Shown piece after piece: positions 1,405 through 31,614 of a DNA stretch of 32,805 bases. Under the pieces are notes generated by a model, which ran no database searches, was not told the DNA's origin, and was given only the letters and a program-made list of their open reading frames with translations. Source of the stretch: Planctomycetia bacterium (lineage in GTDB: Bacteria; Planctomycetota; Planctomycetia; Gemmatales; Gemmataceae); assembly GCA_005808665.1 (NCBI GenBank), contig SYLG01000119.1, forward strand, positions 1-32,805, written 5' to 3'. The position numbers were made by a program, and so were the translations under genes. Numbering within the stretch: position 1 is the stretch's first letter; each line of letters starts with the position of its first letter.

Positions 1405-1989
1405 TACCTTATTTAGGTCATTGTTTGATAACCAATACTGGATTCACCTAAACGGCTTCCCTGCAACACCGAATTGACCCCCGGTCTACCGGCCGGTTTG
1501 TAACTGCCTTACTATCCTATAATTCCTAACATTATGTAATCGCCCTAAAGCCAATGAGCCATTCCTGGTTGAGCAGGATAAGGGGTGCTTTATCCTTTGA
1601 CCAAATCAGCCCTTACTGGCTCAAAACCGGATTTCCCTAAAGGCATCAGGGGTGCGATTCCTTCCTGCCGGGAATCCGGAAGGAATCGGATTCCTCATTT
1701 CCAATATTCGAAAGGCCACCGCCCGCCTTTCTTATTTTGGCTCATTCTGCCCCAATCGCCCAGTTTCTACAAGCGGAAAGGCATTGGGAAATTTGCCCCA
1801 CCAACCCGCACAACCCACCCAACCCATTGATGGATTGGGCCTTGAGCAGGGCTGAATCCATCTTCCATCTACCTTGCCTTGGCCTTTGGTCGAATCGAGA
1901 AGTGGATGTCCCCGCCAGGAGGCGATTCATCCCCCATTTGGAATTTTTTCCCTTTGGGCTGCAAGGAAGCAAGGGAGGCCGGCAAGGCC
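1405..1989. other. Intergenic region upstream of the Mla-type operon
   Basis: No supported gene is visible. Several overlapping open frames exist on both strands because the sequence lacks stops, but none has a ribosome binding site or recognisable protein. The plus frame of the permease is open back to 1879 (TTG), but the codons before 1990 read as ordinary non-coding sequence. Confidence 0.5.
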
Positions 1990-2823
1990 ATGGCTAACGA
2001 GGCTACCGCTTCGATCGGTCCCGACACAACATCCCCTCCACGGGAGCCAGTCGCTGAGGCTCCCCAAGGCTTCATTGAACAAATCGGTGACTTTACCCTT
2101 TTTTGTATTTCGGTTTGTTCGCAATGTTTTTCCCGCCCCATGCGTGGAAGCCTGGTCCCCATTTTTTATGAAGTAGGGGTTCGTAGCCTCCCGGTGGTAG
2201 CCCTTACCGGCCTGTTTATTGGTATGGTCCTTGCCGTCCAGGCCTATGCGGAGTTCGCCCGTCTGGGGATGGCAACCAGCCTGGGCATGATGGTAAACAA
2301 GTCGGTGGTGGTGGAGCTTGGCCCGGTGTTGGCAGCTTCCATGCTTGCGGGGCGAGTAGGGGGAGCCATGGCCGCCGAGCTTGCCACCATGAAGATTTCA
2401 GAACAGCTGGATGCCCTGATTTGCCTGGGTGCCTCGCCGGTAAAATATCTTGCCGTTCCCCGGTTTCTGGCCTGCCTGTTCATGATTCCCGTGCTTACCA
2501 CTTTGGCGAACTTTTGTGGGATAGTGGGCGGTGCCTTGGTTACCACCCAGCTTTATGGGGTGGAACCCTACCACTATTGGGAGAATACCAAAAACCACAT
2601 TCACTTTTGGGACTTGGGGGTTGGCCTGGTAAAGCCCATGGTCTTTGGCGGGACCATTGCCCTGATTGCCTGTCATCAGGGATTTAACTCGGGCAAGGGG
2701 GCAACCGGGGTGGGTGCAGCATCCACCGTTTCCTTTGTCTGTTCCTTCATCGCCATTTTGGTTTTCGACTTTTTCCTTTCGTTTTTTGCCAACCGCCTCC
2801 ACGGAGTCCTCTGGCCCGGATAA
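1990..2823 (+). CDS. mlaE: MlaE-type ABC transporter permease
   Basis: This 277-residue protein matches the MlaE/DUF140 permease family, the membrane subunit of inner-membrane lipid transporters paired with MCE proteins. Landmarks are 'ALTGLFIGMVLAVQAYAEFARLG', 'VVELGPVLAASMLAGRVGGAMAAELATM' and 'SEQLDAL..LGASPVKYLAVPRFLA', which are near-signature blocks of the family. About five membrane segments follow the cytoplasmic N-terminal helix. I chose the ATG at 1990 because GGGAGG lies 11 nt upstream and the length then fits the family (about 260); the frame is open further up to a TTG at 1879. It is the first gene of a tight operon: 15 nt separate its stop from the ATPase gene. Substrate is inferred to be phospholipid or another lipid. 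Confidence 0.9.
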   Translation: MANEATASIGPDTTSPPREPVAEAPQGFIEQIGDFTLFCISVCSQCFSRPMRGSLVPIFYEVGVRSLPVVALTGLFIGMVLAVQAYAEFARLGMATSLGMMVNKSVVVELGPVLAASMLAGRVGGAMAAELATMKISEQLDALICLGASPVKYLAVPRFLACLFMIPVLTTLANFCGIVGGALVTTQLYGVEPYHYWENTKNHIHFWDLGVGLVKPMVFGGTIALIACHQGFNSGKGATGVGAASTVSFVCSFIAILVFDFFLSFFANRLHGVLWPG

Positions 2824-2838
2824 CCCGGGCCCCTTGCC

Positions 2839-4569
2839 ATGAACACCCTTTATCCACCCCTGTCATCCCTGATCGGAGCATCCACCCAACCCGCGGAGGA
2901 TGTCCGCTTTGAGGCCGTGGATATGCGACTGGGCGGACACCAGATACTCCGCAATATAAACCTTTCCCTCAGGCGTCGGGAAACCGTGGCCATCGTTGGG
3001 GAATCGGGTTGTGGCAAGACCACCCTGCTCAAATTGATGATTGGACTGCTGGAACCATCGCAAGGACGAGTCATTGTCCTTGGCAAGGATATTGCCAGGA
3101 TGGACAACCGGGAGCAGTGCTCCCTGCGCCGCCATTTCGGTTTCCTGTTTCAGGCAGCCGCACTCTTTGACAGCATGAGCGTTGCCGACAACATTGCCTT
3201 TGGCCTCCGGGCTCAGGGGATTCTTCCCGACCGGGATATACGACCAATCATCCAACAAAAACTATCCGAAGTGGGGCTTTCCCAAAGCGTGGCGTTAATG
3301 TTCCCCGCAGAACTGTCCGGGGGGATGCGCAAACGCGTTGGCCTGGCCCGGGCCCTTGCACTCAACCCCGAATTCATGCTGTTTGATGAGCCTACCACCG
3401 GCCTTGATCCCATCATGAGCGATGTGATCAATGACCTTATTATCAAAGTCAAAAGCGAGCTGGGCATTACCGCCATCCTCGTTACCCACGAGATGCAAAC
3501 CGTCCGGAAAGTCGCCGACAGGGTGATCATGTTGGCTGCAGTCCATCAACTCGGCACCGATCAATCCCAAATCCTGTTTGATGGTCCCGTGGCGCAATTC
3601 CTCAACAGCAACGATCCCCGAATCAGGAGGTTTATCGAGGGCAATGCCCGTGGATGGGAAGCGAATGGAACCGGGGTCCCGTTGGCTTCAGCCAGTAACC
3701 AGGGTCCCAGGCCAATTACTCCTGGCCCAGTCCATGGAAAAGAGGGGGATACCCCTCTTCGATGGATCGTCCCTCAAATCCTGGTTCCCACTTTGGAACC
3801 ATCGCCAACCTCCGCAAAAGCCAAGGCTATCCCTTCCGTACCATCCCCCCATAAAACCACCCCGGTCCCTGAAAAACCAGGTATCACCAGCGAGGTCGAA
3901 ATACCAGCCGTTACCGTGGCCCCAGCATCCGTGGATCAAATTCCCGGTCAATTAACCTTGGCAGTGGCATCGAGCCAGATTGTCCAGGACTTTGAGTTGG
4001 GCAAGGAGTTTTTGCCTGAGTCAAAGGCGATAGCAGAATCCGCACCGTTGGCTCATACCGTAGTACCCCCTAAAGGGGTCGAGGTTATTCCAGAACGGGT
4101 CAACGCCTGGCCTTTACCCGTGGATAATGGACCAGAAAACCAGTCGGTTGACCAAACACAGCCCTCCTCCCCATGGGAACATTCAAGCCTTGGTGAAGAG
4201 TATTTGCCAATAGGGGTGGTGCAATCGAAAGCTGTTCCCCTGACCCAAAACCTTCCGCATCCAAAACCCGTGGAAGCCCTCAGGGAACCAGGAGAAGGAT
4301 TGGATCCATCCGGTTTCGAAGACGATTCCCTGGCGGGGCCACCGCATTTTTTAGACCAAGGGGATTCCATTGGGGAACCGGTTCCGCCCATCAGCAATCA
4401 GGTTCCTTCATTGACCGAACCGAGATCCGATTCCATGGTGCTTGAAGAACCCCAGGGAATTTTCCAACACAGGGAAGCCAACCCCGTCGATGTCCTGGAA
4501 ACCTCGGGTGTGGACGAAGATGGGTCAATATCCGGCAAACCTAACACCTCTTTGGAGCAGTCGCCATGA
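2839..4569 (+). CDS. mlaF: MlaF-type ABC ATPase with ~300-residue Pro/Glu-rich C-terminal extension
   Basis: Residues ~20-270 are a complete ABC ATPase: Walker A GESGCGKTT at 54-62, signature LSGGMRKRVGLARAL near 158, Walker B LFDEPTTGLDP near 180, then the switch His in VTHEMQT. The 'MRKRVGLARA' form of the signature is typical of the Mla/Ttg2 lipid-transport group. The usual family length is about 260; here another ~300 residues follow, rich in Pro, Glu, Ser and Val and without recognisable fold. This tail contains two related ~35-residue blocks beginning ELGKEFLPES and SLGEEYLPIG. The stop overlaps the next start as ATGA, so translation is probably coupled. No strong Shine-Dalgarno precedes the ATG at 2839, so the exact start is less sure. 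Confidence 0.9.
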   Translation: MNTLYPPLSSLIGASTQPAEDVRFEAVDMRLGGHQILRNINLSLRRRETVAIVGESGCGKTTLLKLMIGLLEPSQGRVIVLGKDIARMDNREQCSLRRHFGFLFQAAALFDSMSVADNIAFGLRAQGILPDRDIRPIIQQKLSEVGLSQSVALMFPAELSGGMRKRVGLARALALNPEFMLFDEPTTGLDPIMSDVINDLIIKVKSELGITAILVTHEMQTVRKVADRVIMLAAVHQLGTDQSQILFDGPVAQFLNSNDPRIRRFIEGNARGWEANGTGVPLASASNQGPRPITPGPVHGKEGDTPLRWIVPQILVPTLEPSPTSAKAKAIPSVPSPHKTTPVPEKPGITSEVEIPAVTVAPASVDQIPGQLTLAVASSQIVQDFELGKEFLPESKAIAESAPLAHTVVPPKGVEVIPERVNAWPLPVDNGPENQSVDQTQPSSPWEHSSLGEEYLPIGVVQSKAVPLTQNLPHPKPVEALREPGEGLDPSGFEDDSLAGPPHFLDQGDSIGEPVPPISNQVPSLTEPRSDSMVLEEPQGIFQHREANPVDVLETSGVDEDGSISGKPNTSLEQSP

Positions 4570-6251
4570 GTATGAAATCGATGCGGTTGCAATTGGGTTT
4601 AGTGGTTATGGGTGGGGCAGTCCTGCTCGGCTGCATGATCATCCTCTTTGGCTCCATGCCCCGGTTTTGGGAAAAAACAGATACCTATTATGCACAATTC
4701 GAGGATGCTCCTGGCGTTGGTCAGGGAACTCCCGTCCGCAGATCAGGTGTCCGCGTGGGCCATGTCTCCGATATTGTCCTTGATGAGGAAACCGGAATGG
4801 TTTTGGTCCATTTTTCCCTGGCCCATCCTTTCAAACTTCGCAAATACGAAATACCAACACTTACGACTGGCTTATTGGCCAATGATGCCACGGTGGACCT
4901 TGTGCCCGATGCGGAAATCAAGGACAAATCGATCATTCCCGCAGAATCCGTTGTAATGGGAAAGCGTGCCGCTACGGTGAATTCGTTGCTGCAAAATGCT
5001 TCGGGGGTGGTGCCCAAAACCCAGGACGCCCTCGACGAAATGCGAAAGTCCCTGCAAAAATTGGAGGCTCTCTCCCCCCTTTTGCAGGAATCTCTCAAGG
5101 AGGTCAGAGACCTTGCCAAGGAGGTCCGCACGGCAGTTCCCGAATTGAAAGAAGGCGTGCTTGTTACTTTCAAACAATATGAGGTCCTTGGCAAGCAGGC
5201 CAACGAATACCTTCCCAAAATGCAGGCAAGCCTCGACAAAGGGATTGCCGATATCCGCGATACAGCCAAGGCGGCCACCGCAACTTTCAAAGACATCGAA
5301 AAAATCGGTTCAGACATTGGTGCTGCCGCCAGGCAGATCGGCGGTACGGCCGAAAGAGCGGATCGTTTCATCCAGCAAAACTCTGACAAATTGAGCAAAA
5401 CCATCGACTCCACCAATGAAACCATCAATCGCATTGGCAGTCTTCTGAACGATGATAACCAGAAACAATTTGGGGCGATTTTGAAAAACACAAAGAAAGC
5501 AAGCGATCGCTTTGATGGCATGGCGCAAAACTTTCTGGATGTCTCAAAGGAGATCCAGGAGTCTGTGAAATGGTTCATCCAATTCACCCGCCAATTGGAT
5601 GAATCCGCCGATCCCAATCGCCGAACACCACGATCAGGTTCAGGCAGGCCAATCGGGGCCCTACCGCATTTCCCCGGTGGAACCTACCCTTTGGGGGGTA
5701 GTGGCCAAGGGGTGGTCGCCTCCAACATCCGGCCCATCACCCAAACCGTCCCGGCAGGAGGTGGCATTCCTGCCCTGACGACTTCGCAGGGTTCAACCAT
5801 TACCCAAACCTTGCCACCACCCCTATCGGGGCTTCCCAGACCCATCCCAGGGACCCTGCCAACTCCCCTGGGGGCGAATGCAAATGCCAGCCCGGTTGGC
5901 ATATCCGGGGCAAGGTTGGGTATGCTCCTCCGGGACCTTGACGAGACCGTGGTTGGAGTAAACGATTTTGTCTCTGAAGTAAAAGGCCTTTTCAAAGGAT
6001 TGATGGAGGGTGAGGGTGCCCTGAAAAAATTCCTGAACGATCCCACGGTCTATTACCGCATCGACCAAATTCTTGTGGGGGTAGTTCAACAAATCCCAAC
6101 CATCTCACGGATATTGAACAATGCCGAGATTTTTATGGACAAGCTGGCAAGACATCCGGAGGCACTGGGACTAGGCGGTGTGGTTCGGCCGGGCAGTGGG
6201 ATCAAGGATGCTCCGCCAAGTGGCGGTGGGTTACGCATTCCCCCCAGGTAA
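4566..6251 (+). CDS. mlaD: MCE-domain (MlaD-type) substrate-binding protein
   Basis: A single N-terminal membrane anchor (about residues 9-29) is followed by an MCE domain (about 37-115) with 'Y.AQFEDAPGVGQGTPVRRSGVRVGHVSDI', the family hallmark. Residues ~140-350 are a long helical, probably coiled-coil region (repeated 'L.....A....K' heptads), as in MCE proteins that build a periplasmic tube or bridge. Residues ~355-470 are Pro/Gly-rich and low complexity, then another helical segment and a short Pro-rich tail. At 561 residues it is much longer than E. coli MlaD (about 180) and resembles the long-tailed MCE proteins. It overlaps the ATPase gene by 4 nt. No MlaC-like shuttle or outer-membrane partner lies in the window, so the long MCE protein may itself span part of the periplasm. 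Confidence 0.88.
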   Translation: MSMKSMRLQLGLVVMGGAVLLGCMIILFGSMPRFWEKTDTYYAQFEDAPGVGQGTPVRRSGVRVGHVSDIVLDEETGMVLVHFSLAHPFKLRKYEIPTLTTGLLANDATVDLVPDAEIKDKSIIPAESVVMGKRAATVNSLLQNASGVVPKTQDALDEMRKSLQKLEALSPLLQESLKEVRDLAKEVRTAVPELKEGVLVTFKQYEVLGKQANEYLPKMQASLDKGIADIRDTAKAATATFKDIEKIGSDIGAAARQIGGTAERADRFIQQNSDKLSKTIDSTNETINRIGSLLNDDNQKQFGAILKNTKKASDRFDGMAQNFLDVSKEIQESVKWFIQFTRQLDESADPNRRTPRSGSGRPIGALPHFPGGTYPLGGSGQGVVASNIRPITQTVPAGGGIPALTTSQGSTITQTLPPPLSGLPRPIPGTLPTPLGANANASPVGISGARLGMLLRDLDETVVGVNDFVSEVKGLFKGLMEGEGALKKFLNDPTVYYRIDQILVGVVQQIPTISRILNNAEIFMDKLARHPEALGLGGVVRPGSGIKDAPPSGGGLRIPPR

Positions 6252-12006: not shown

Positions 12007-12657
12007 ATGCCCAATCTCCTCTTGGGAACCAAAACGCCAATGACTCAGCCGGTGGCCGATACCCTTCCCTCCCATTCCCAACCTTTCCGTGCCAATAGGG
12101 GGAGCGAAGTCATCGCCCTTTTGATCATGGGAATTGGGCTAATGGTCACGGGGTTTTTCTCAGGCTGGATGTATTTTCAAATTCGCCAGGGAATTGGGCC
12201 AGGGCGGGGCAAGGAGACTTTGGTTCCTGCTGCCATGATTCCCATTGCCCACGAGAACGATCCCCTGATCCTTGTCGGGCCAGACAGCCTTTCCTGGAAA
12301 ATGAACAAAGGATCCGTGTTGTTTCAATTGAACCGAAGTGACCAACCCTTGCAAACTTTGCGATTTGAGCTTGGTCCCAAAGAGGAAGGGGCCAGCCTCA
12401 TTTGGTTACGGCAAAAAATAAGCGGAAACGATGAACTTTGGACCATCGCTCTTGGTTTGCCCCAATCGGACCATCCCCCAAGGCGGGAATCTTTCAGGGT
12501 GTTGGTCGATCCAAACCAAATGGGACTTCTGGCCCGAAGTGGCCAAGTCCCCCTCCAAGCCAATACCCCGGTCGTTCTAAGCCAATGGGAAAACAAAAGG
12601 GATGTCAAAATCCTAACCGGTTACTTGCGATCGCTGCAAATAACCTGGCATCCTTAA
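12007..12657 (+). CDS. Unknown single-pass membrane protein (216 aa)
   Basis: An N-terminal cytoplasmic stretch of ~35 residues precedes one membrane segment (about 35-56, ALLIMGIGLMVTGFFSGWMY), then a ~160-residue exported domain with no family I recognise. The exported part has evenly spaced beta-like stretches (SVLFQLNR, LQTLRFELG, ASLIWLRQK, LWTIALGL, FRVLVDP), reminiscent of a beta-sandwich. The ATG at 12007 and the ATG at 12040 (MTQPVAD) are both possible starts; neither has a strong Shine-Dalgarno. The TAA stop coincides exactly with the first three bases of MITE-like copy B, so the native 3' end may have been altered. Confidence 0.6.
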   Translation: MPNLLLGTKTPMTQPVADTLPSHSQPFRANRGSEVIALLIMGIGLMVTGFFSGWMYFQIRQGIGPGRGKETLVPAAMIPIAHENDPLILVGPDSLSWKMNKGSVLFQLNRSDQPLQTLRFELGPKEEGASLIWLRQKISGNDELWTIALGLPQSDHPPRRESFRVLVDPNQMGLLARSGQVPLQANTPVVLSQWENKRDVKILTGYLRSLQITWHP

Positions 12658-12761
12658 CCCAAGTTACGCAGATCGGGACATGAAAACCCAGGTTTTCCGG
12701 GAGAATATTCAAATCCGCCTGCAAAAGTCGGGAATCCAAATCCTCTCCAGGGACTAGCCCT
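12655..12761. mobile_element. MITE-like element, copy B (left part only)
   Basis: It begins TAACCCAAGTTACGCAGAT and matches the first ~107 bp of copy C block by block (AAAACCCAGG, TTTTCCGG, TCAAATCCGCCTGCAAA, CTCCAGGG). It then breaks off where a palindromic repeat begins. No right terminal repeat belonging to this copy is visible before copy C, so it is truncated. Confidence 0.65.
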
Positions 12762-12888
12762 AATTCCCCTCCTTGGAGGAGTGCCCGTCAGGGCGGGGTG
12801 GTTCGTAAAGTGGACCGCCTTCCAAATGTTGTGTTCTTTAAGGCACCACCCCGTCAGGCTTCGCCTGCCACCCCTCCATAGGGGAATT
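12762..12888. repeat. Palindromic REP/MITE-like element
   Basis: The two ends are imperfect inverted copies of about 40 bp: the left arm reads AATTCCCCTCCTTGGAGG..GGGGTGGT and the right arm, reverse-complemented, reads AATTCCCCTATGGAGGGG..GGGGTGGT. The right arm contains a small inner hairpin, CAGGC-GAA-GCCTG. The spacer of ~45 bp has no open frame. Repeats of this CCCCTCC/GGAGGGG...GGGGTGGT style are scattered in intergenic DNA of many bacteria. Here it sits exactly at the broken end of MITE-like copy B. Confidence 0.75.
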
Positions 12889-12891
12889 CAA

Positions 12892-13175
12892 TAACCCAGG
12901 TTACGCAAATTGACCCATAAAACCCAGGGTTTTGCCGGTAAAAATCAAATCAGCCTGCAAAGATCAGGAGTACAAATGTCCTCCAGGGTACCTGCGAATA
13001 TTTCCAACCTCCTTTGTTACATTCGCAGAAGTACCAGTCATTATCAAGTAACTTGGTCGGGACTACGGGCCGTTTTGAACTCGACATATTCCAAAATTCA
13101 GGGAAAAACCACAATCAGGGACCCAAAATTGGACAAAAAAGCGTAAAAGCCAGTCCAACTGCATAACTTGGGTTA
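12892..13175. mobile_element. MITE-like element, copy C (284 bp)
   Basis: Both terminal inverted repeats are present: TAACCCAGGTTACGC on the left and, read inward from the right, TAACCCAAGTTATGC. The right third is clearly homologous to the right third of copy A (shared TCAAGTA(C/A)CTTGGTCGGGA block, 13042 onward). The middle differs in length and sequence from copy A, so the family tolerates internal change. No protein is encoded. Confidence 0.75.
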
Positions 13176-13197: not shown

Positions 13198-13234
13198 CAA
13201 GGGTCGGAAGGAATTGCAACCCAACCGACCCTTG
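13198..13234 (-). terminator. Rho-independent terminator of the peroxiredoxin operon
   Basis: A perfect 10-bp stem (CAAGGGTCGG / CCGACCCTTG) with a 17-nt loop lies 8 nt past the peroxiredoxin stop. Read on the minus strand it is followed by TTTGTCTTC, a modest U-rich tract. Confidence 0.7.
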
Positions 13235-13241
13235 GGCCAAT

Positions 13242-13784
13242 TTATTTCAGGTCTTTTTCAATAAAGCCAAGCACTTCTTCGGCATGGGTTGCCGGGCTGA
13301 CCTTCGTGTAAACCTTGGCGATTTTTCCCTGTTTGTCGATGACATAGGTGTGTCGTTTGGCATATCCCACAGGGCCAATCGCTCCCAATTGGGTTGCCAC
13401 CTTTTTATCAGGGTCGGCAAGAAGCGGGATCTCGAGGTTTTCTTTTACGATGAATTTGTTTTGGGTCTCTGCGTTGTCGGTGCTAATGCCGAACACGACC
13501 GTGTTCAACTTGGCGAATTTTTCATTCACCTTGCTTAGCGAGTTGCATTCAACCGTTCAGCCAGGGGTCATGGCTTTGGGATAAAAAGCGAGGACAACAT
13601 TTTTTTTGTCCCTGTAATCGGCGAGGCGAATGGTCTCTTTTTTGCCCCCCTTGGAGACAGCTACCAATTCAAAATCCGGGGCGGGTGAACCCGGGGCAGG
13701 CAAATCCGCAGACATCGTGAACCCTCCCAAGAGTGCCAGGCCAAATCCGGCCAGCAACCGATCCATTCGAAAAAAGCGAAGCAT
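13242..13784 (-). CDS. Exported peroxiredoxin (Bcp/AhpC-TSA type), probable selenoprotein (TGA = Sec76)
   Basis: One continuous frame of 180 codons is broken only by a TGA at 13557-13559. Upstream it reads a signal peptide (about 1-25, hydrophobic LLAGFGLALLGGF) and the peroxiredoxin start 'PAPGSPAPDFELVAV' ending FYPKAMTPG; downstream it reads TVECNSL and the rest of the fold, including IPLLADPD and RHTYVID. The family motif PxxxTxxC is thus P69-T73-U76: the TGA stands exactly at the peroxidatic cysteine. A possible resolving Cys80 and the conserved Arg144 are present. The rest is undamaged, so decay is unlikely, and a hairpin fitting bacterial SECIS rules follows. The enzyme would reduce peroxides in the periplasm. 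AAAAGGAG precedes the ATG by 7 nt. It is last in the operon with nnrE. No sel genes are in the window; a Cys-to-stop mutation is the alternative. Confidence 0.85.
13512..13530 (-). promoter_or_regulatory. Candidate bacterial SECIS hairpin
   Basis: In the mRNA, 26 nt after the UGA, a 7-bp stem GGUGAAU/AUUCGCC (one G-U pair) closes a 5-nt loop GAAAA. The loop begins with G, and its first base is 33 nt past the UGA. Both facts fit the usual description of bacterial SECIS elements (apical G, loop about 16-37 nt from the UGA). It lies inside the coding sequence, as bacterial SECIS elements must. Confidence 0.65.
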
Positions 13785-13846
13785 TGAAAACTCCTTTTGG
13801 TGGAAGAAGGGCTGTTCCTTCTTTTGCTATTGTCCCGAATTATTCC

Positions 13847-20389: not shown

Positions 20390-20731
20390 AGGTCGGTTTC
20401 CTTAAAAAGATAGTACCGTCGGTTAAAACACTCCTGTTTAAATATCCCATAACACTGGCTCTATTGTGGAGCGCAACTTTTATGAAATCAATGTCCCTAA
20501 TCAAAAAAAATAATGAAAAAAGGATGAGAATGCTCTGATCCTATTGTACCTTAACTCCCCCCTAAGGGTCGGAATTGGGATTGATTTGGGTCGAGGTTCG
20601 GATTGGCAGGCCTTGATTCCCCAAGTGGGGATCGGCGTAGGCATCGGCAGAAAAGAGTGGTATAATTCCTTCACAAAGATATCTTTGCCTGCCTCAGATC
20701 CAAACGACCCAATGTTCGGGTGATTTCCTTC
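20390..20731. other. Divergent intergenic region
   Basis: This region separates the minus-strand exported-protein gene from the plus-strand DUF1549 gene. Apart from the promoter at 20638-20666 and a small palindrome AAAGATATCTTT just after it, I see nothing firm. Confidence 0.5.
20638..20666 (+). promoter_or_regulatory. Candidate sigma70-type promoter for the DUF1549/DUF1501 operon
   Basis: A perfect TATAAT (-10) lies 17 bp after TAGGCA, a weak -35. The predicted leader is about 60 nt. Confidence 0.5.
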
Positions 20732-23700
20732 ATGATGCATCGCCACAATCTCCTGGCTACCCTCTGTCTCCTTGGAATCAGTCCCTGGGTTGTTGCCGAT
20801 GATTTTTTTAACAGCAAAATCGAACCCCTTTTGAAATCCCGCTGCTTTGAATGCCATTCGCACGGGAAAAAGATCAAAGGCGGCTTGGCCCTTGATTCCC
20901 AATCGGGGTGGGTCAAGGGAGGAGAAAGCGGTCCTGCCCTGATACCCAACAAGCCCCAATCGAGCCTCCTGATCAAGGCCATTAGCCACGCGGATAATGA
21001 CCTGAAAATGCCCCCCGGGAAAATGCTTTCCCCCGCGGAAATTGGCCTGTTGACGGAATGGGTCCAAAAGGGGGCCCCCGATCCCAGGCTGCCGATTACC
21101 AAACCAATGGGAGCCGACCTGGTTTCAAAAGAAGCATGGAAGGTTGAGTTCAGGAAACGGCTGGATTGGTGGAGCCTGTTACCCATGGGCCGTGATGGCC
21201 CCCCTGTCGTCAGGGAGGGACCTTGGTCCAAAGAGCCCATCGACCGGTTTATTTTGAGTGCCTTGGAAAAGGCCGAACTTCAGCCCGCTCCGCCCGCTGA
21301 TCCGGAAGTAATGCTCAGGCGGCTAGCGTTTGTGTTAACCGGCCTTCCTCCCGCTCCCGAAACGATGATGGAATGGGCGGGAAAGGGAATGGCCTATGAA
21401 CAGTTGGTGGATCGCTATTTGGCAAGTCCGCATTTTGGAGAACGGTTTGCCCGCCATTGGATGGATGTCGTTCGATACACGGATACCTATGGCTACGAGT
21501 GGGATAATCCGGCAAAGGGATCCCATGAATACCGGGACTATCTGATCCGGGCGTTTAATGAGGATCTGGGGTACGATCAATTGGTCAGGGAGCAGATTGC
21601 TGGTGACCTTTTACCGAACCAAAGAATCCATCCCGTGGCACGGACCCATGAAAACCTCATTGGCCCGATGTTCTATCACCTGGGGGAACATCGCCATGGC
21701 AGCAGCATGGCGTTCAATGGCGTGCATCAGGAGATGGTGAACAACAAGATCGACGCCTTTTCCAAAGCGTTTTTAGCCACCACGGTGGCATGTGCCCGCT
21801 GTCATGATCACAAACTCGAGGCCGTTTCCCAACTCGATTATTATGCCCTGGCGGCGGTTTTCACGACCCCCCGCTGGACCTCAAGGGTCGTGGATGCCCC
21901 CGGTGTCCATGATCTTGCCATTGCCAAACTCAAGGAATTAAGGCAAGGCATTCGTGTTGAAATGGCAAAACTGTGGAAAGGGACCCCGATTTCCCCAAAG
22001 GGGTTGCAAACGGCCGCCGGGGATTTGGATAAAACCAAGGCGGTCATAGAGGATATTACCTATCCGATGATGCGCCTTTTCCCGAAGGATAAACCAAAGG
22101 GGCCAGACTCTGTTGCCTTGGCATGGACCCAAGCCAAGGCCGAGTGGCAGGCAACCCGGACTCAACGCCTCAAAACCAATGCCGCCTTCCAGAAGCTTTC
22201 CGATTTCAGGAAAGAGGGCTTGCCCAAGGGTTGGGTCATGGAAGGGGATGGCATGAAACATGGCCTGGTTGCCGAGGCAACCCCTTTGATTGCCTTGGAG
22301 GGACCCCAGGTTTTTTCACGCCTGTTAGCGGAAGGCTATCACACCCATGCCCTCTCTTCCAAGTTGCCCGGGGCGTTCCGGATGCCTCCCCAACACCTGG
22401 TTCCCGGGGATTTTACCAGTGTAAAAATGGCAGGGGGCCAGTTTGGTGGCTACATGGTTGTGGATGACCACGCTTTTCAGAATGAACCCCTTTCCTTCCT
22501 GAACCATCCGGATCCCCAATGGAAAACCATCGCCGATGCCAAGCGGATCAACGGCGTCCAACAGATTACGATGGAGGGAGCCACCTCTTCCCTTAATCCC
22601 AATTTTCCTCCGAGAACCGGGTTGGCCGGGGGGTTGGACAATGCCGACTTTGGCTATGACAAAAGGAGCTGGATCAGTCTTACTGGTATTGTGACCCATG
22701 GAACAGGTGGGGCCCCGGTTGATGAACTGGACGCATTTGCCCCGTTGTATGAGGGACAGGCACCAAAAACCCCTGAAGAGACCTGGCAACGGCTCAGCGA
22801 TTGGCTTGCCGGTTCGGTAACCCGGTGGGGTGAGGAGCGTACCAGGGCGGGCGATTTGGCCATGCTGGATTGGTTGCTTGCCAAAAAGTTGCTACCCAAC
22901 CAGGCCCTGGCGGGGTCCCCATTAGAGAAGCGCTTAAGTGAGTATCGACGCATTGAGGCGGCTATCCCCTTTCCCCGGACGGCCAACAGCATGGATGAAC
23001 GGGAAACGGCGAAAATGGGCTATCCGCTTAATGTTCGGGGAAATGTCGATGTATTGGGGGAGTTGGTAAAACCGGATTTTTTGAGCATGTTCGCTGGGAA
23101 AAACAGTGTCTCCATTAGCCAGGGTAGCGGTCGGTTGGAACTGGCCGAATCGCTTTTGGATCCCGAACATCCGCTTACCGCACGGGTTTATGTGAATCGT
23201 GTTTGGCAGTGGCTTTTTGGGGCGGGGCTGGTGGCGACACCGGATGATTTTGGCCGCCTGGGGGGAAAGCCTTCCCATCCTCTTCTGCTTGATTATTTGG
23301 CAAGGGATTTTATCCGGGAGGGGTGGTCGACCAAAAAACTGGTGCGCAAAATCCTCCTGAGTCAGGCCTTTCGCCAAGGCGGACTCGTAACCATGACGGG
23401 TCGGGACAGGGACCCGGACAATCGTCTTTTGCACCATTACCCCACCCGACGGCTTGAGGCAGAAGCCATTCGCGATACTTTGCTTTTCGTGGCGGGGAGA
23501 CTGGATGCCAAACTTTATGGCCGACCGATATTGCCTCCCCGATCGGTCGTGGATGGGGCCAAGCGGCTGTTCAACGGTCCGCTTGATGGGGAAGGGCGTC
23601 GGTCCATTTATCAACAAATGTCCATCATGGACCCGCCCAAATTCCTGGTTGGTTTCAATTTGCCCGATCTCAAATTGCCGACGGGCCGCCGTGATGTAAC

Positions 23701-23995
23701 CAATGTTCCTACCCAGGCGTTGATCCTGCTGAATGACCCTTTTGTGGCAGAAATGGCAAAACAGTGGGTTACCGGATTGCTCAAGGATCCTTCCCCGAAT
23801 CCCGGGGAGCGGGTTCGGAAAATGTTTATCAGGGCCCTGGGCCGGGAACCCCTTGCAGTGGAAAAAAATCGGTGGACCGAAGCGGTCAAAGACTTTTCCA
23901 CCAAACCAGGATCGGATTTGATGCTCGATGAGAAAGCGTGGCAGAGCCTTGCTTTTGCTTTCTTCAACACAAAAGAGTTTATTTATTACCGATGA
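20732..23995 (+). CDS. PSCyt1-DUF1549-DUF1553 exported cytochrome-like protein
   Basis: A signal peptide ([16 protein letters not shown]) precedes a PSCyt1 domain with a CFECH heme c site (residues ~38-42) and '[12 protein letters not shown]'. DUF1549 follows, with '[11 protein letters not shown]', '[12 protein letters not shown]' and '[22 protein letters not shown]', ending with a second CxxCH (CARCHDHK, about residue 354). DUF1553 occupies the C-terminal third ('[32 protein letters not shown]', '[13 protein letters not shown]', '[13 protein letters not shown]'). A ~350-residue region between the two domains is unassigned. Proteins of this build are hugely expanded in planctomycetes and are suspected to act on polysaccharides or in electron transfer, but no reaction is proven. 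Start candidates are ATG 20732 or 20735; there is no strong ribosome site. Its stop overlaps the DUF1501 start (ATGA). Confidence 0.9.
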   Translation: [1087 protein letters not shown]

Positions 23996-25434
23996 AACAG
24001 TACAAACCGGAAACAGCCTCACCCAAACCCTGTTCCTGCCCCGGCCGGATCTCCGGAACCCTTAGCCGTAGGGGGTTTTTGCAAAACAGCCAAGCCGGTT
24101 TTGGCTGGCTGGCTTGGCAGGCCCTGGCTCAGGCCTCTCCCACCCCTTTGCATCGTCCGAAGGCAAAAAATGTAATCTTTTGTTTCATGGATGGTGGGCC
24201 CAGCCATGTGGACACCTTTGATCCCAAACCCATGCTTGAAAAGCATCAGGGAAAGGCCATTGGCGAAGCCGCCGTCAGTAAACGCTCCCAATCGGATGCC
24301 AATCGTGTTTGGTTGGGTAGCCCGTGGAAATTTCGTCAACGAGGCCAGAGCGGACTTTGGGTGAGTGATCTTTTCCCGCACTTGGCCCGGGTGGCGGACC
24401 GGTTATGCGTGGTCAGGTCCATGGTTGGCGAATTACCCTTGCATGGCCAACAAAACCTGTTGCTGCATACCGGTCGTATCATTGGCCAGGCACCCAGCTT
24501 TGGTGCCTGGGTATCGTATGGCCTTGGCACCGAAAACCGGAACCTTCCCGGGTATGTTGTGCTCAACAACGATTGGGTGCCCAATGGAGGGCTCGAAAAC
24601 TTTGGAAGTTCGTTCCTTCCCGCCAGTCACCAGGCCACGATGATGCGCGCAAGGGGCGTTCCGGTGGATAACATCCAGCCACTCAATGTCGCGAGAATTC
24701 AAAAACGCCAACTGGCCCTGCTTGCGGAACAGGATGCCGCTTTTGCCCGGCAAAGTTCGGAGGCCAAGTCGATTGAAGGGGCCATAGCCAACTATGAAAC
24801 GGCGTTCCTAATGCAAACGGCGGTGCCCGAGACGGCGGATATTGCCAATGAACCAGAGTCGATCCGCAAACTTTATGGAGTGGATTCCGCCGATGAGCAT
24901 CAGCGCCTTTATGCCACGCAGGCGTTGAGGGCCCGCCGCCTGGTCGAGGCGGGAGTACGATTTGTCGAAATCACCTGTCCCAGCTTTGATGGCAACAATT
25001 CACCATGGGATCAACATGGAATGTTAAAACAAAATCACGAGAAAAATGCCCGAATCACCGAGCAATCGGTGGCGGCGTTGATCATTGACCTGGAGCAACG
25101 GGGCCTGCTTGATGAAACGATAGTCCTTTGGGCGGGCGAAATGGGCCGCACCCCCCACACGCCTGCCATTAACGCAAGTGTGGGTCGGGACCACCATGTC
25201 AACGGCTACTCCCTTTTTATGGCAGGAGGGGGGTTCAAAGGTGGGATGGCGTTTGGCGAAACCGACGAGTTTGGCAATGGCGTCGTCCGGGAGCCTTTGG
25301 ATATTCATGACATTCACGCCACGCTTTTGCACCAACTTGGGTTAAATCACGAACAGCTTACCTTTCGGCATGGTGGGCGGGATCAACGCCTCACCGAGGT
25401 ATACGGGCGGGTGATAAGGCCTCTTTTGGCCTGA
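23992..25434 (+). CDS. DUF1501 Tat-exported protein (copy 1)
   Basis: The 480-residue protein starts at an ATG overlapping the previous stop by 4 nt. It has a twin-arginine export signal (SRRGFLQNSQAGFGWLAWQALA, residues ~25-46). The DUF1501 core includes 'NVIFCFMDGGPSHVDTFDPKP', 'VSDLFPHLARVADRLCVVRSM', 'GAWVSYGLGTENRNLPGYVVL' and 'VLWAGEMGRTPHT'. The fold is related to the alkaline phosphatase superfamily, and a sulfatase-like or phosphoesterase-like role has been suggested for the family, but the catalytic residues of those enzymes are not clearly conserved. It is nearly always encoded next to a DUF1549/DUF1553 protein, as here, so the two probably act together outside the cytoplasm. Confidence 0.92.
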   Translation: MKQYKPETASPKPCSCPGRISGTLSRRGFLQNSQAGFGWLAWQALAQASPTPLHRPKAKNVIFCFMDGGPSHVDTFDPKPMLEKHQGKAIGEAAVSKRSQSDANRVWLGSPWKFRQRGQSGLWVSDLFPHLARVADRLCVVRSMVGELPLHGQQNLLLHTGRIIGQAPSFGAWVSYGLGTENRNLPGYVVLNNDWVPNGGLENFGSSFLPASHQATMMRARGVPVDNIQPLNVARIQKRQLALLAEQDAAFARQSSEAKSIEGAIANYETAFLMQTAVPETADIANEPESIRKLYGVDSADEHQRLYATQALRARRLVEAGVRFVEITCPSFDGNNSPWDQHGMLKQNHEKNARITEQSVAALIIDLEQRGLLDETIVLWAGEMGRTPHTPAINASVGRDHHVNGYSLFMAGGGFKGGMAFGETDEFGNGVVREPLDIHDIHATLLHQLGLNHEQLTFRHGGRDQRLTEVYGRVIRPLLA

Positions 25435-27559: not shown

Positions 27560-29020
27560 TTATGCCATTACCTGGTGAATCGGTTCGACAGGTTCGACAC
27601 CGACCAGTTTTTGGTCAAGGCCACCATAAAAATAACTGAGCCGATTGGGGTCAAGGCCCATGCGATTGAGAATGGTTGCATGAAGGTTTTTGACATGAAA
27701 ACGGTCTTTGACTGCAGCGCCTCCCAGTTCGTCGGTTTCGCCTACCGAAATTCCTCCCTTGATGCCGCCGCCTGCCATCCACATGGTAAAGCCATAGGCG
27801 TTGTGGTCGCGGCCTGTGCCTTGGGCATATTCGGCAGTGGGTTGGCGGCCAAACTCACCCCCCCAAACCACAATCGTCGAGTCAAGCATTCCTCGTTGCT
27901 TGAGGTCGCGAAGGAGGGCAGCAATGGGCTGGTCGGTGTTTCCGGCATGTTTGGTATGGTTGGAAACGATATCGGAATGGGCATCCCAGTTGTCATCGTT
28001 ATGGGCTCCGCCTGAGTAAAGTTGGATGAAACGGACACCTCGTTCCACCAGTCGCCTGGCCAGGAGGCACTTGCGGCCGAAATCGGCGGTGCGTTTTTCA
28101 TTCACCCCGTATTCGTCCAGGGTTTTCTTCGATTCTTTGGAAAAATCGACAACTTCCGGGGCGTGCGTCTGCATCTGGAAGGCCAATTCATAGCTGGCAA
28201 TCCTTGCGGCAAGTTCCGAGTTGTCCGCCCGGGTGGCCATGTGGGCCTGATTGCGTTGGTTGAGCGAATCCAGGAGTCGCCTTTGGGCGGATTCGGTCAA
28301 ATCCTTGGGAGGTTGAAGATGTAAAATTGGGTGTTTGTCTGCCTTGATTACGGTTCCCTGATAGGCGGCGGGCATATAACCCGAGGCCCAATTCTTGGGA
28401 CCGGAAATGGGGCCACCGGTGGGATCGAGCATGACTACAAACCCGGGAAGGTTCTGGTTTTCGCTGCCCAAGCCATAGGTCACCCAGGAACCCAAAGCCG
28501 GGTGGCCACTTAGGACCCGGCCCGAGTTCATCATGAGCATCGCCGAACCGTGGATTGGAGATTCCGCATACATCGAGTGGATAAAGGCAATATCATCGGC
28601 GCAGGTCCCCAGATTGGGAAAAAGGTCGGAGATCATTTTGCCGCACTGTCCCTTGGGTTTGAAGGCCCATTTGGGGCCAACCACCCGTCCCTGATTGCGG
28701 TGCCCGCCCCGGCCAAAAGTTTTCACCTGAATGCTTTTGCCATCGAGGGGATAGAGGTTGGGCTTGTAATCAAAGGTGTCGACCTGACTTGGGCCACCAT
28801 ACATGAAAAGGAAAATGACGGCCTTGGCTTTGGAGTCGGAAATGGCCTTTTTGGCAGCCATGGGATTGACCAAGGGCGTGCCATCGACCGCCCTTGCCTG
28901 GTTGGCAAAAAAGTTGTCACCAAGCATTCCGGTCAAGGCGGCTGCACCAAAACCACCCCCCGATTCCCAAAGGAACTCACGACGGGTGCGGCGGCAAAAC
29001 TGGTTGTTTGAAGGGTTCAT
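27560..29020 (-). CDS. DUF1501 Tat-exported protein (copy 2)
   Basis: The 486-residue protein has a twin-arginine signal (RRTRREFLWESGGGFGAAAL, residues ~10-29). DUF1501 blocks follow: 'KAVIFLFMYGGPSQVDTFDYKP', 'MISDLFPNLGTCADDIAFIHSM', 'GSWVTYGLGSENQNLPGFVVM', 'RFIQLYSGGAHNDDNWDAHSD' and 'VVWGGEFGRQPTAEYAQGTGRDHN'. It shares these blocks with copy 1 but is clearly a diverged paralogue, not a recent duplicate. The gap to the DUF1549/DUF1553 gene upstream is 30 nt, so the two form a transcription unit. Function as for copy 1: exported, alkaline-phosphatase-like fold, reaction unknown. Confidence 0.92.
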   Translation of the reverse strand: MNPSNNQFCRRTRREFLWESGGGFGAAALTGMLGDNFFANQARAVDGTPLVNPMAAKKAISDSKAKAVIFLFMYGGPSQVDTFDYKPNLYPLDGKSIQVKTFGRGGHRNQGRVVGPKWAFKPKGQCGKMISDLFPNLGTCADDIAFIHSMYAESPIHGSAMLMMNSGRVLSGHPALGSWVTYGLGSENQNLPGFVVMLDPTGGPISGPKNWASGYMPAAYQGTVIKADKHPILHLQPPKDLTESAQRRLLDSLNQRNQAHMATRADNSELAARIASYELAFQMQTHAPEVVDFSKESKKTLDEYGVNEKRTADFGRKCLLARRLVERGVRFIQLYSGGAHNDDNWDAHSDIVSNHTKHAGNTDQPIAALLRDLKQRGMLDSTIVVWGGEFGRQPTAEYAQGTGRDHNAYGFTMWMAGGGIKGGISVGETDELGGAAVKDRFHVKNLHATILNRMGLDPNRLSYFYGGLDQKLVGVEPVEPIHQVMA

Positions 29021-29050
29021 GATTTCAGTCCTGTGCGGGATCCCATTATT

Positions 29051-31564
29051 TCAATCGAGGAAAAAAAACTCGTTGGTATTTAAAGCCATCAGGCAAAACT
29101 GCCTAAGGGCGTTATCGGAACTCATGCCGTGGTGCGCCCTCAAGTCGTTGATCAAGGCTTTGTCGGCCTTTTGCTGTTCGGCGGTGGGGAACCTTCCCGT
29201 GGTAATCCGGTTGGCAAGGATTAACCGGTCTTCAAGGCTTCCCGGGGCGTCACGCAAAAGCCTTTTGGCAAAAATACCCGCCTGCTCCTGGGTAAAGGCA
29301 CTATTGAGCAGGCCAAGTGCCTGGGTCGGAACAACCGTGGTGTAACGAACCGGGCAGGAACTGTCGGTGTCTGCCTGGTCATGTTGGGAAAGTATAGGGA
29401 GCTGGAGCGAACGCTTGACATGGACATATATGCTTCGGCGGTTGGCTTCTGGCCCTTGGGTGGTAGGCCAACCCTGTCCCGGGACCGATTGCCCGGCAAG
29501 CACTTCGGGCGGGATGGGTGGATAGACGCTTGGCCCACCCAGGGAAGTGTTCAGGTTTCCCGAAGCAAATAACATGCTGTCACGAACTTCCTCGGCGGAA
29601 AGGCGGCGCATGGGAAACTTCCACAAAAAGGAATTCGCCGGGTCCATTTTGCTGGCGAGGAGGGATACCTTTTCGCTTGCTGTTGCCGCACTTTGATAAA
29701 CCGAAGAAAGAAGGATCAATTTGTGCAACCGTTTGACTTTCCATCCGCCTGCCACAAAGTCGTTGGCCAGCCAATCAAGCAGTTCCGGGTGGGTTGGAGC
29801 TTCACCGAATTGGCCAAAGTCGTTGGTGGTGGCGACGATTCCGCGGCCAAAATGGTGCTGCCAAATCCGGTTGACAAAGACCCGGGCAGTAAGTCGGTTT
29901 TCGGGTCCAACAATCCAATCGGCGAGTACGCTTCTCCTGCCTGAGGTTTTGGCCCCGGGTTTGATTTCCGGGATGGTGGGTTCTTTCATGGCGATAACGC
30001 TGGGAAAACCAGGCGTTACCGTGTCACCAGGCGAGTGGGGGTTACCACGAATCAGGAGCTTAACAGGGTCCGGTTTTACCCGGCATTGGTTCACCGAAAG
30101 GGCAAACTCCTGGGACTCGGGTGGTTTTTGTTTTTTCAGCTCCCCATGTTCCTTTTTGAATTTGTTGTATTCCTTGTTTTCCTCAACATTGAGAACGCCT
30201 TTCAGCTTGGCATTGATCACGGCTTCACGGTCGTTTGCCAAGGCGGCATCTTTGTCCTCACCGGACATCCGGCTAATGCCAATGTCCTGAATCCTTCTGA
30301 GTTCGGCTTCAATATCGGCGATTTTCTTTTTGCGGGCCTCAACCTCCCCTTCGAAAAGTTTGCGCTTTTCGAGAGGGGTAATGTCGGTAAGGGAGGTGGC
30401 CGAGAAGGGGTTCCGGTCGTTGGAGAATTTTCCAATATCTGCAAAGAATGCCAGGAAGCGGTAGTAATCCTTTTGGGGGATCGGGTCGATTTTGTGGTCA
30501 TGGCAACGGGCACAGTTCATGGTCATGCCCAGGAAGACCTGACAGGTGGTTGCCACAAGATCATCGTACTCGTCAAAACGGGCCTGCAAAGGGTCGGCGG
30601 GCTCATCGTCCCAAATGCCAAGCCGATGGTATCCCGTGGCAATGATCCTCTCGGCTTCCTCCCGGGAATCGGCGCGGGCGGGAAGCTCATCTCCGGCAAT
30701 TTGTTCCCGGACAAAGCGGTCAAACGGTTTGTCCTGGTTGAACGATCCGATGACATAATCGCGAAAACGCCACGCAAACGGTTTGATGCCATCTCTTTCA
30801 TAACCGTTTGTTTCGGCAAAGCGGACAAGGTCAAGCCAATGGCGACCCCATTTTTCGCCATAGTGGGGGCTGGCCAGCAGGCGATCTATGACCCGTTCCA
30901 CCCCTTGGGGTGAATGGTCGGCGACAAACGCATCAACTTGGGCCGGGGTGGGGGGGAGGCCGGTGAGGTCGTAGCTGATTCTCCGAAGGAAAGAAACCGG
31001 GTCGGCGGGTGGGGCGGGTTGAAGCCCCTTGGCCTCCAGCCTGGAAAGGATGAAGGCATCAACAGGCTGTTTGACCCAGGCGGAATTCCTGACCTCGGGC
31101 GGCGGGACCTTTTTCAGGGGTTGATAGGCCCAATAGTCTTTGGCCTCGATCCGTTTGGGTTTGTCCTCGTGAGCTTGAACTTTGGTGGGGCCGGGTTTAA
31201 TTCCCTTTTTCCACGCCAGGTTATTGTCAAACCATTGCCGAAAAACCACAATCTCGGCGTCGGTTAGCTTGCCCGAGGGGGGCATTTGGATGTCCCCTTT
31301 GTAATCGAGCACCTTGAGGAGGATGGATTCGGAGGCTTTCCCCAAGACCACTGCTGGCCCCAAATCGCCTCCTTTGAGAAACCCCTCACGGTTGTCCATC
31401 CGGAGGCCACCCTTGGGTTTGTTTTCCGAATGGCATTTGAGGCATTTGGACTGCAATAACGGCCAGACTTTATTCTCAAAATGCTCTTCGGCAGCTTGAT
31501 CTGCAAAATTAGGCGCGGAAAAAAGGATCACACTGAACGCTAAAGTGGTGGAACAAATCAACAT
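29051..31564 (-). CDS. PSCyt1-DUF1549-DUF1553 exported cytochrome-like protein (copy 2)
   Basis: After a hydrophobic export signal come PSCyt1 with CLKCH and '[12 protein letters not shown]', then DUF1549 ('[23 protein letters not shown]', '[21 protein letters not shown]', '[23 protein letters not shown]') with a second CxxCH in [10 protein letters not shown]. A ~120-residue charged helical stretch ([22 protein letters not shown]) lies before DUF1553 ('[33 protein letters not shown]', '[17 protein letters not shown]', '[14 protein letters not shown]'). At 837 residues it is ~250 shorter than its plus-strand counterpart. I prefer ATG 31564 (AAGGA upstream) over ATG 31597, because the likely promoter would leave only ~10 nt of leader for the latter. 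Confidence 0.9.
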   Translation of the reverse strand: [837 protein letters not shown]

Positions 31565-31614
31565 TAGGCAGTTGTCCTTGAAGCAGAATATCACCATCCC
31601 GGTGGAACATTTCT

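Follow-up and report, generated by a model that had tools for sequence, protein, structure and literature searches.

The window, i.e., the whole stretch of 32,805 nucleotides that was analyzed, carries on its minus strand a frame of 180 codons, which starts with an ATG at 13784 and ends with a TAA at 13244-13242. The sole interior stop of this frame is a TGA at codon 76 (13559-13557). Plain ORF calling splits the gene into two pieces, 13557-13784 (75 aa) and 13242-13529 (95 aa), which are exactly the fragments that an earlier sequence-only reading had expected from an automatic caller; its description of a 180-codon frame interrupted by one TGA, given without a strand, was likewise borne out. 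The following features were assigned to the locus:

13242 to 13784, minus strand: predicted selenocysteine (Sec) peroxiredoxin gene, PrxQ/BCP-like, 180 aa, with Sec as residue 76 (ORF, homology, AlphaFold/Foldseek)
13557 to 13559, minus strand: TGA (Sec) codon 76 at the peroxidatic position, PKAMTPG-U-TVEC (frame reading, codons of relatives)
13512 to 13530, minus strand: candidate bacterial SECIS hairpin, GGUGAAU-GAAAA-AUUCGCC (agrees with the bSECIS model in PMC13188914)
13545 to 13547, minus strand: candidate resolving Cys80, codon TGC, +4 from Sec (sole other Cys of the mature protein)
13707 to 13784, minus strand: probable signal peptide, approximately residues 1-26, with the hydrophobic stretch LLAGFGLALLGGF (hydropathy; common to homologues)
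13791 to 13798, minus strand: Shine-Dalgarno-like AAAAGGAG just 5' of the ATG (sequence)

A search around the peroxiredoxin gene yielded no sigma-70-like promoter. A few bases past its true stop, at 13199-13233, there is an inverted repeat (AAGGGTCGG / CCGACCCTT), which possibly ends transcription after the full-length frame. Just downstream of the gene lies a non-coding element of 521 bp (12655-13175), which has terminal inverted repeats of 17 nt (TAACCCAAGTTACGCAG / CTGCATAACTTGGGTTA) and an internal 70-nt direct repeat (12683-12752 and 12919-12988, 74% identical). The element has 58 matches in the genome, including four other full-length copies with 79-87% identity and many partial matches at contig ends. 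It thus resembles an abundant family of MITE-like elements at which the assembly breaks. Elsewhere in the window, MlaE permease, ABC ATPase, and MlaD/MCE proteins are encoded in a row as a lipid-transport cluster (1879-6251). Two copies of the planctomycete-type pair PSCyt1/PSCyt2/PSD1 (cytochrome c, DUF1549, DUF1553) together with DUF1501 are located at 20720-25434 and 27560-31597, oppositely oriented on either side of an S15 peptidase gene.

When the frame is read with the TGA as a residue, the product matches Pfam AhpC-TSA (1.3e-34, residues 31-157). An alignment of 20 homologues revealed that P69, T73, the position of residue 76, and R144 are invariant columns; the TGA thus takes the place of the catalytic Cys in PxxxTxxC, as the sequence-only reading had stated. 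The best NCBIfam family is PRK09437, the thioredoxin-dependent thiol peroxidase (BCP/PrxQ), with 101.4 bits; since this is below the equivalog cut-off of 140, we call the protein PrxQ/BCP-"like". With PrxU (NCBIfam NF040737), the score is 47.7 bits, far below the cut-off of 270. By sequence, the nearest solved structure is that of Sulfolobus Bcp1 (PDB 3drn). AlphaFold, run on the window protein and 19 relatives, gave a mean pLDDT of 87.5, with low confidence for residues 1-25. Foldseek matches to the model were peroxiredoxins and BCP, including Bcp1 and Prx2. Thus, the model confidently predicts a thioredoxin-like peroxiredoxin fold, which occurs here together with the PxxxT(S)xxC/U motif and the conserved Arg. 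In the model, residue 76 sits in a helix that begins at residue 74. The mature protein contains one Cys besides position 76, namely Cys80 at +4, which had already been pointed out as a possible resolving residue. In known PrxQ enzymes, the resolving Cys is located at +5, a spacing that the window protein does not share. Among the homologues, a second Cys is found at +4 in 9/27 Sec and 4/41 Cys proteins and at +5 in 18/27 Sec and 36/41 Cys proteins, whereby one Cys protein has neither. The N-terminus is hydrophobic with basic residues and, as judged by hydropathy, resembles a signal peptide; this is conserved in relatives. The signal peptide that had been proposed from the sequence is therefore recovered as a signal-like segment, while the periplasmic location, which had been put forward along with it, is likely rather than shown.

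In order to find out which codon related genes use at the catalytic site, as the sequence-only reading had suggested, we collected 74 loci from an order-wide search and from the nearest public relatives (with a few genomes in both sets). The site is occupied by TGC in 33, by TGA in 31, and by TGT in 10 of them, and by nothing else; these loci encode 27 different proteins with TGA and 41 with Cys at the site. An in-frame UGA is thus aligned to the catalytic Cys of homologues, forming a Cys/Sec pair. In a set of 80 related loci from public genomes, TGA is present in 7 and Cys in 73. In the order-wide search as well as in a sample of 294 genomes from the phylum, in which stops were recorded irrespective of their position within the gene, the interior stops of relatives are single TGAs and never TAA or TAG. 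The genus of the window holds both forms: the window protein and a 92% identical relative, which retains the TGA, have Sec, and a 68-69% identical relative has Cys. A gammaproteobacterial assembly (L027) carries the TGA form of the peroxiredoxin as well as SelA; the Sec form is therefore not limited to planctomycetes. Two public entries titled Singulisphaera sp. (L021) and Candidatus Kuenenia (L022) have SelA positions and scores equal to those of G086 and G074, respectively, and thus appear to be these genomes. These titles are probably misassigned, since G086 and G074 fall in the window's own genus and family.

The genome was screened for selA, selB, and selC (tRNA-Sec), whose absence had been named beforehand as evidence against a selenoprotein, and for selD, and all of them are present. 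The selA gene (E 8e-135) and selB (335 bits) are adjacent on contig 22, and selD (354 bits) is located on contig 155 together with a tRNA that ARAGORN assigned to Sec, with the anticodon UCA (TCA). The genome thus encodes SelA, SelB, SelD, and tRNA-Sec. The selD gene of the same genome (L164, C155:15072-16007) likewise carries an in-frame TGA where the catalytic Cys would be encoded (ASCAGUAGKL), a position that we take to be Cys17 by reference to Escherichia coli SelD. By its sequence, SelD is therefore a candidate for a second selenoprotein visible in this genome. Within the order, SelA was found in 22/24 TGA-bearing genomes. Two genomes depart from this: G085, whose 79%-complete assembly nevertheless contains a tRNA-Sec, and G056, which has selB, whereas selA was not found and no tRNA-Sec scored above the cut-off in this assembly. 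Since SelA occurs in 92/102 genomes of the order overall, its presence does not separate Sec from Cys carriers.

The window hairpin comprises 7 bp and the loop GAAAA, which begins 33 nt after the UGA; it has an energy of -9.9 kcal/mol, agrees with the published bSECIS model (PMC13188914), and emerges as the centroid structure when the 65 nt starting at the codon are folded. Taken alone it is unexceptional, with p 0.13 against synonymous shuffles and a z-score of -1.06 against dinucleotide shuffles. The SECIS signal is strong only as a group property: 25/27 TGA compared to 17/41 Cys homologues fit the model (Fisher p 1.3e-5), and the two groups also differ in hairpin energies (p 1.3e-5) and in ranks against synonymous-codon shuffles (p 5e-5), whereby all of these p values treat sequences as independent that share ancestry. 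TGA and Cys homologues could not be distinguished by the total folding energy of the 46 nt that follow the codon (p 0.22), a stretch that cut off the hairpin; only SECIS-specific criteria applied to a longer stretch distinguished them. In the 92% identical relative, the top stem pair is changed from U-A to C-G by two synonymous substitutions. A Cys-bearing genus-mate of the window retains a shorter form of the hairpin, and in the Sec/Cys sister pair L104/L105 the Cys partner has lost the G of the loop as well as some of the stem.

Taken together, an intact gene whose UGA is read as Sec has to be weighed against a gene that is broken or that is read in another way. The stop might have arisen recently by nonsense mutation, or it might be an error in base calling, since a single substitution turns TGC or TGT into TGA and the assembly is fragmented into 186 contigs. 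However, the TGA recurs at the same codon in 27 distinct homologues from many genera and independent assemblies, including the 92% identical relative, the remaining frame is intact, and TAA or TAG do not occur anywhere. Thus, we regard a pseudogene or sequencing error as very improbable, in line with the sequence-only reading, which had considered random decay unlikely; the 74 related loci show only TGA, TGC, or TGT. Any readthrough would hold the frame open, so it could also be that UGA is read as Trp or Cys by a reassigned code or by suppression, with no selenium involved. We consider this even less credible, because the genome has the complete Sec trait, relatives substitute only Cys codons and never Trp, and SECIS-like hairpins are enriched after the TGA. 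Furthermore, several related genes use TGA as their natural stop, which disallows a global reassignment. Both explanations were rejected on the recurrence of the TGA and the Cys-only alternatives.

A different question is what a Sec-containing product would do. Prx-like Sec oxidoreductases with a UxxC motif are known as a separate family (PMC13188914), and a Cys stands close after the Sec in the window protein, too, so that it might be a thiol:disulphide oxidoreductase and not a true peroxidase. Yet the window protein has PxxxTxxU, with the Cys at +4, and not UxxC; it retains the conserved R144 and matches AhpC-TSA and BCP best. This option is therefore improbable, though less remote than a broken gene or an altered code.

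We conclude that the gene is functional and codes for a probably exported PrxQ/BCP-like thiol peroxidase in which UGA 76 is read as Sec, to which we assign a probability of about 0.95. The selenocysteine peroxiredoxin that had been proposed from the sequence is supported by the Sec machinery and by the Cys/TGA exchange among relatives, whereby Sec insertion as such is inferred and the selenoprotein status is a prediction. What appears to be a gene broken by a stop is almost certainly an intact peroxide-removing enzyme with a catalytic selenocysteine. In such an enzyme, codon 76 would be decoded as Sec by SelB and tRNA-Sec, guided by the hairpin just downstream. The selenol of Sec76 would attack the peroxide and be converted to a selenenic acid, which Cys80 in the same helix might resolve as a selenenyl sulphide. 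This Se-S bond between Sec76 and Cys80 could then be reduced by a thioredoxin-like partner. As judged from its N-terminal hydrophobic segment, the protein is likely exported to the periplasm. Automatic annotation splits or discards genes of this kind. The window gene and its relatives would go unrecognized as selenoproteins, and planctomycete peroxide defence outside the cytoplasm would be under-counted.

A quick tree of 67 homologues with SH-aLRT support only requires 11 Sec/Cys changes, at least 8 of which are forced by well-supported branches, whereby the counts do not distinguish gain from loss. The Cys carriers that were checked in close pairs (G086, G074, G099, G100, and G114) all have selA, selB, and tRNA-Sec; the Cys form in these genomes is therefore not explained by a loss of the machinery. 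On balance, we tend to believe that planctomycetes, above all the Gemmatales, hold a large and little-described family of exported Sec peroxiredoxins, in which Sec and Cys replaced each other at least 8 times without loss of the machinery. If this is true, switching would be driven by the local gain and loss of SECIS elements and not by the loss of selenium use. The close Sec/Cys sister pairs within one genus, whose checked Cys partners have the Sec machinery, constitute natural experiments on why and how bacteria replace selenium by sulphur in one enzyme.

The Sec peroxiredoxins (PF00578, TxxU) form a selenoprotein family with an experimental foundation (PMC13188914); 12 of them were listed by Zhang 2006 (PMC1794560). 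The Sec peroxiredoxin of Eubacterium acidaminophilum (Sohling 2001, as cited in PMC13188914) shares with the window protein the Pfam family, the Sec at the peroxidatic position, and the PxxxTxxU motif, as judged from its description. That enzyme belongs to a strict anaerobe, whereas, by the same description, the window protein differs in being PrxQ/BCP-like, of planctomycete origin, likely equipped with an N-terminal export signal, and provided with a Cys at +4. The complete set of Sec-insertion genes in this genome agrees with what is reported in PMC4807772 for Gemmata obscuriglobus and other planctomycetes; formate dehydrogenase and formylmethanofuran dehydrogenase are mentioned there. For a Sec peroxiredoxin from Gemmata, our literature search yielded only reports on the general Sec machinery, although PMC4807772 may list one. 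With PrxU (NF040737), the window protein has the peroxiredoxin domain in common, but it belongs to a different subfamily. PrxQ/BCP (PRK09437; Bcp1, 3drn) is what the window protein matches best by family and by sequence, and closely by fold; the two share a candidate resolving Cys that follows the catalytic position at a short distance in the same helix. In contrast to PrxQ/BCP, the window protein has Sec in place of Cys, its second Cys at +4 instead of +5, and a probable signal peptide. Since Sec peroxiredoxins have been known since 2001, the window enzyme belongs to an already known kind, within which the Cys at +4, the export signal, and the frequent switching between Sec and Cys are the less ordinary variations.
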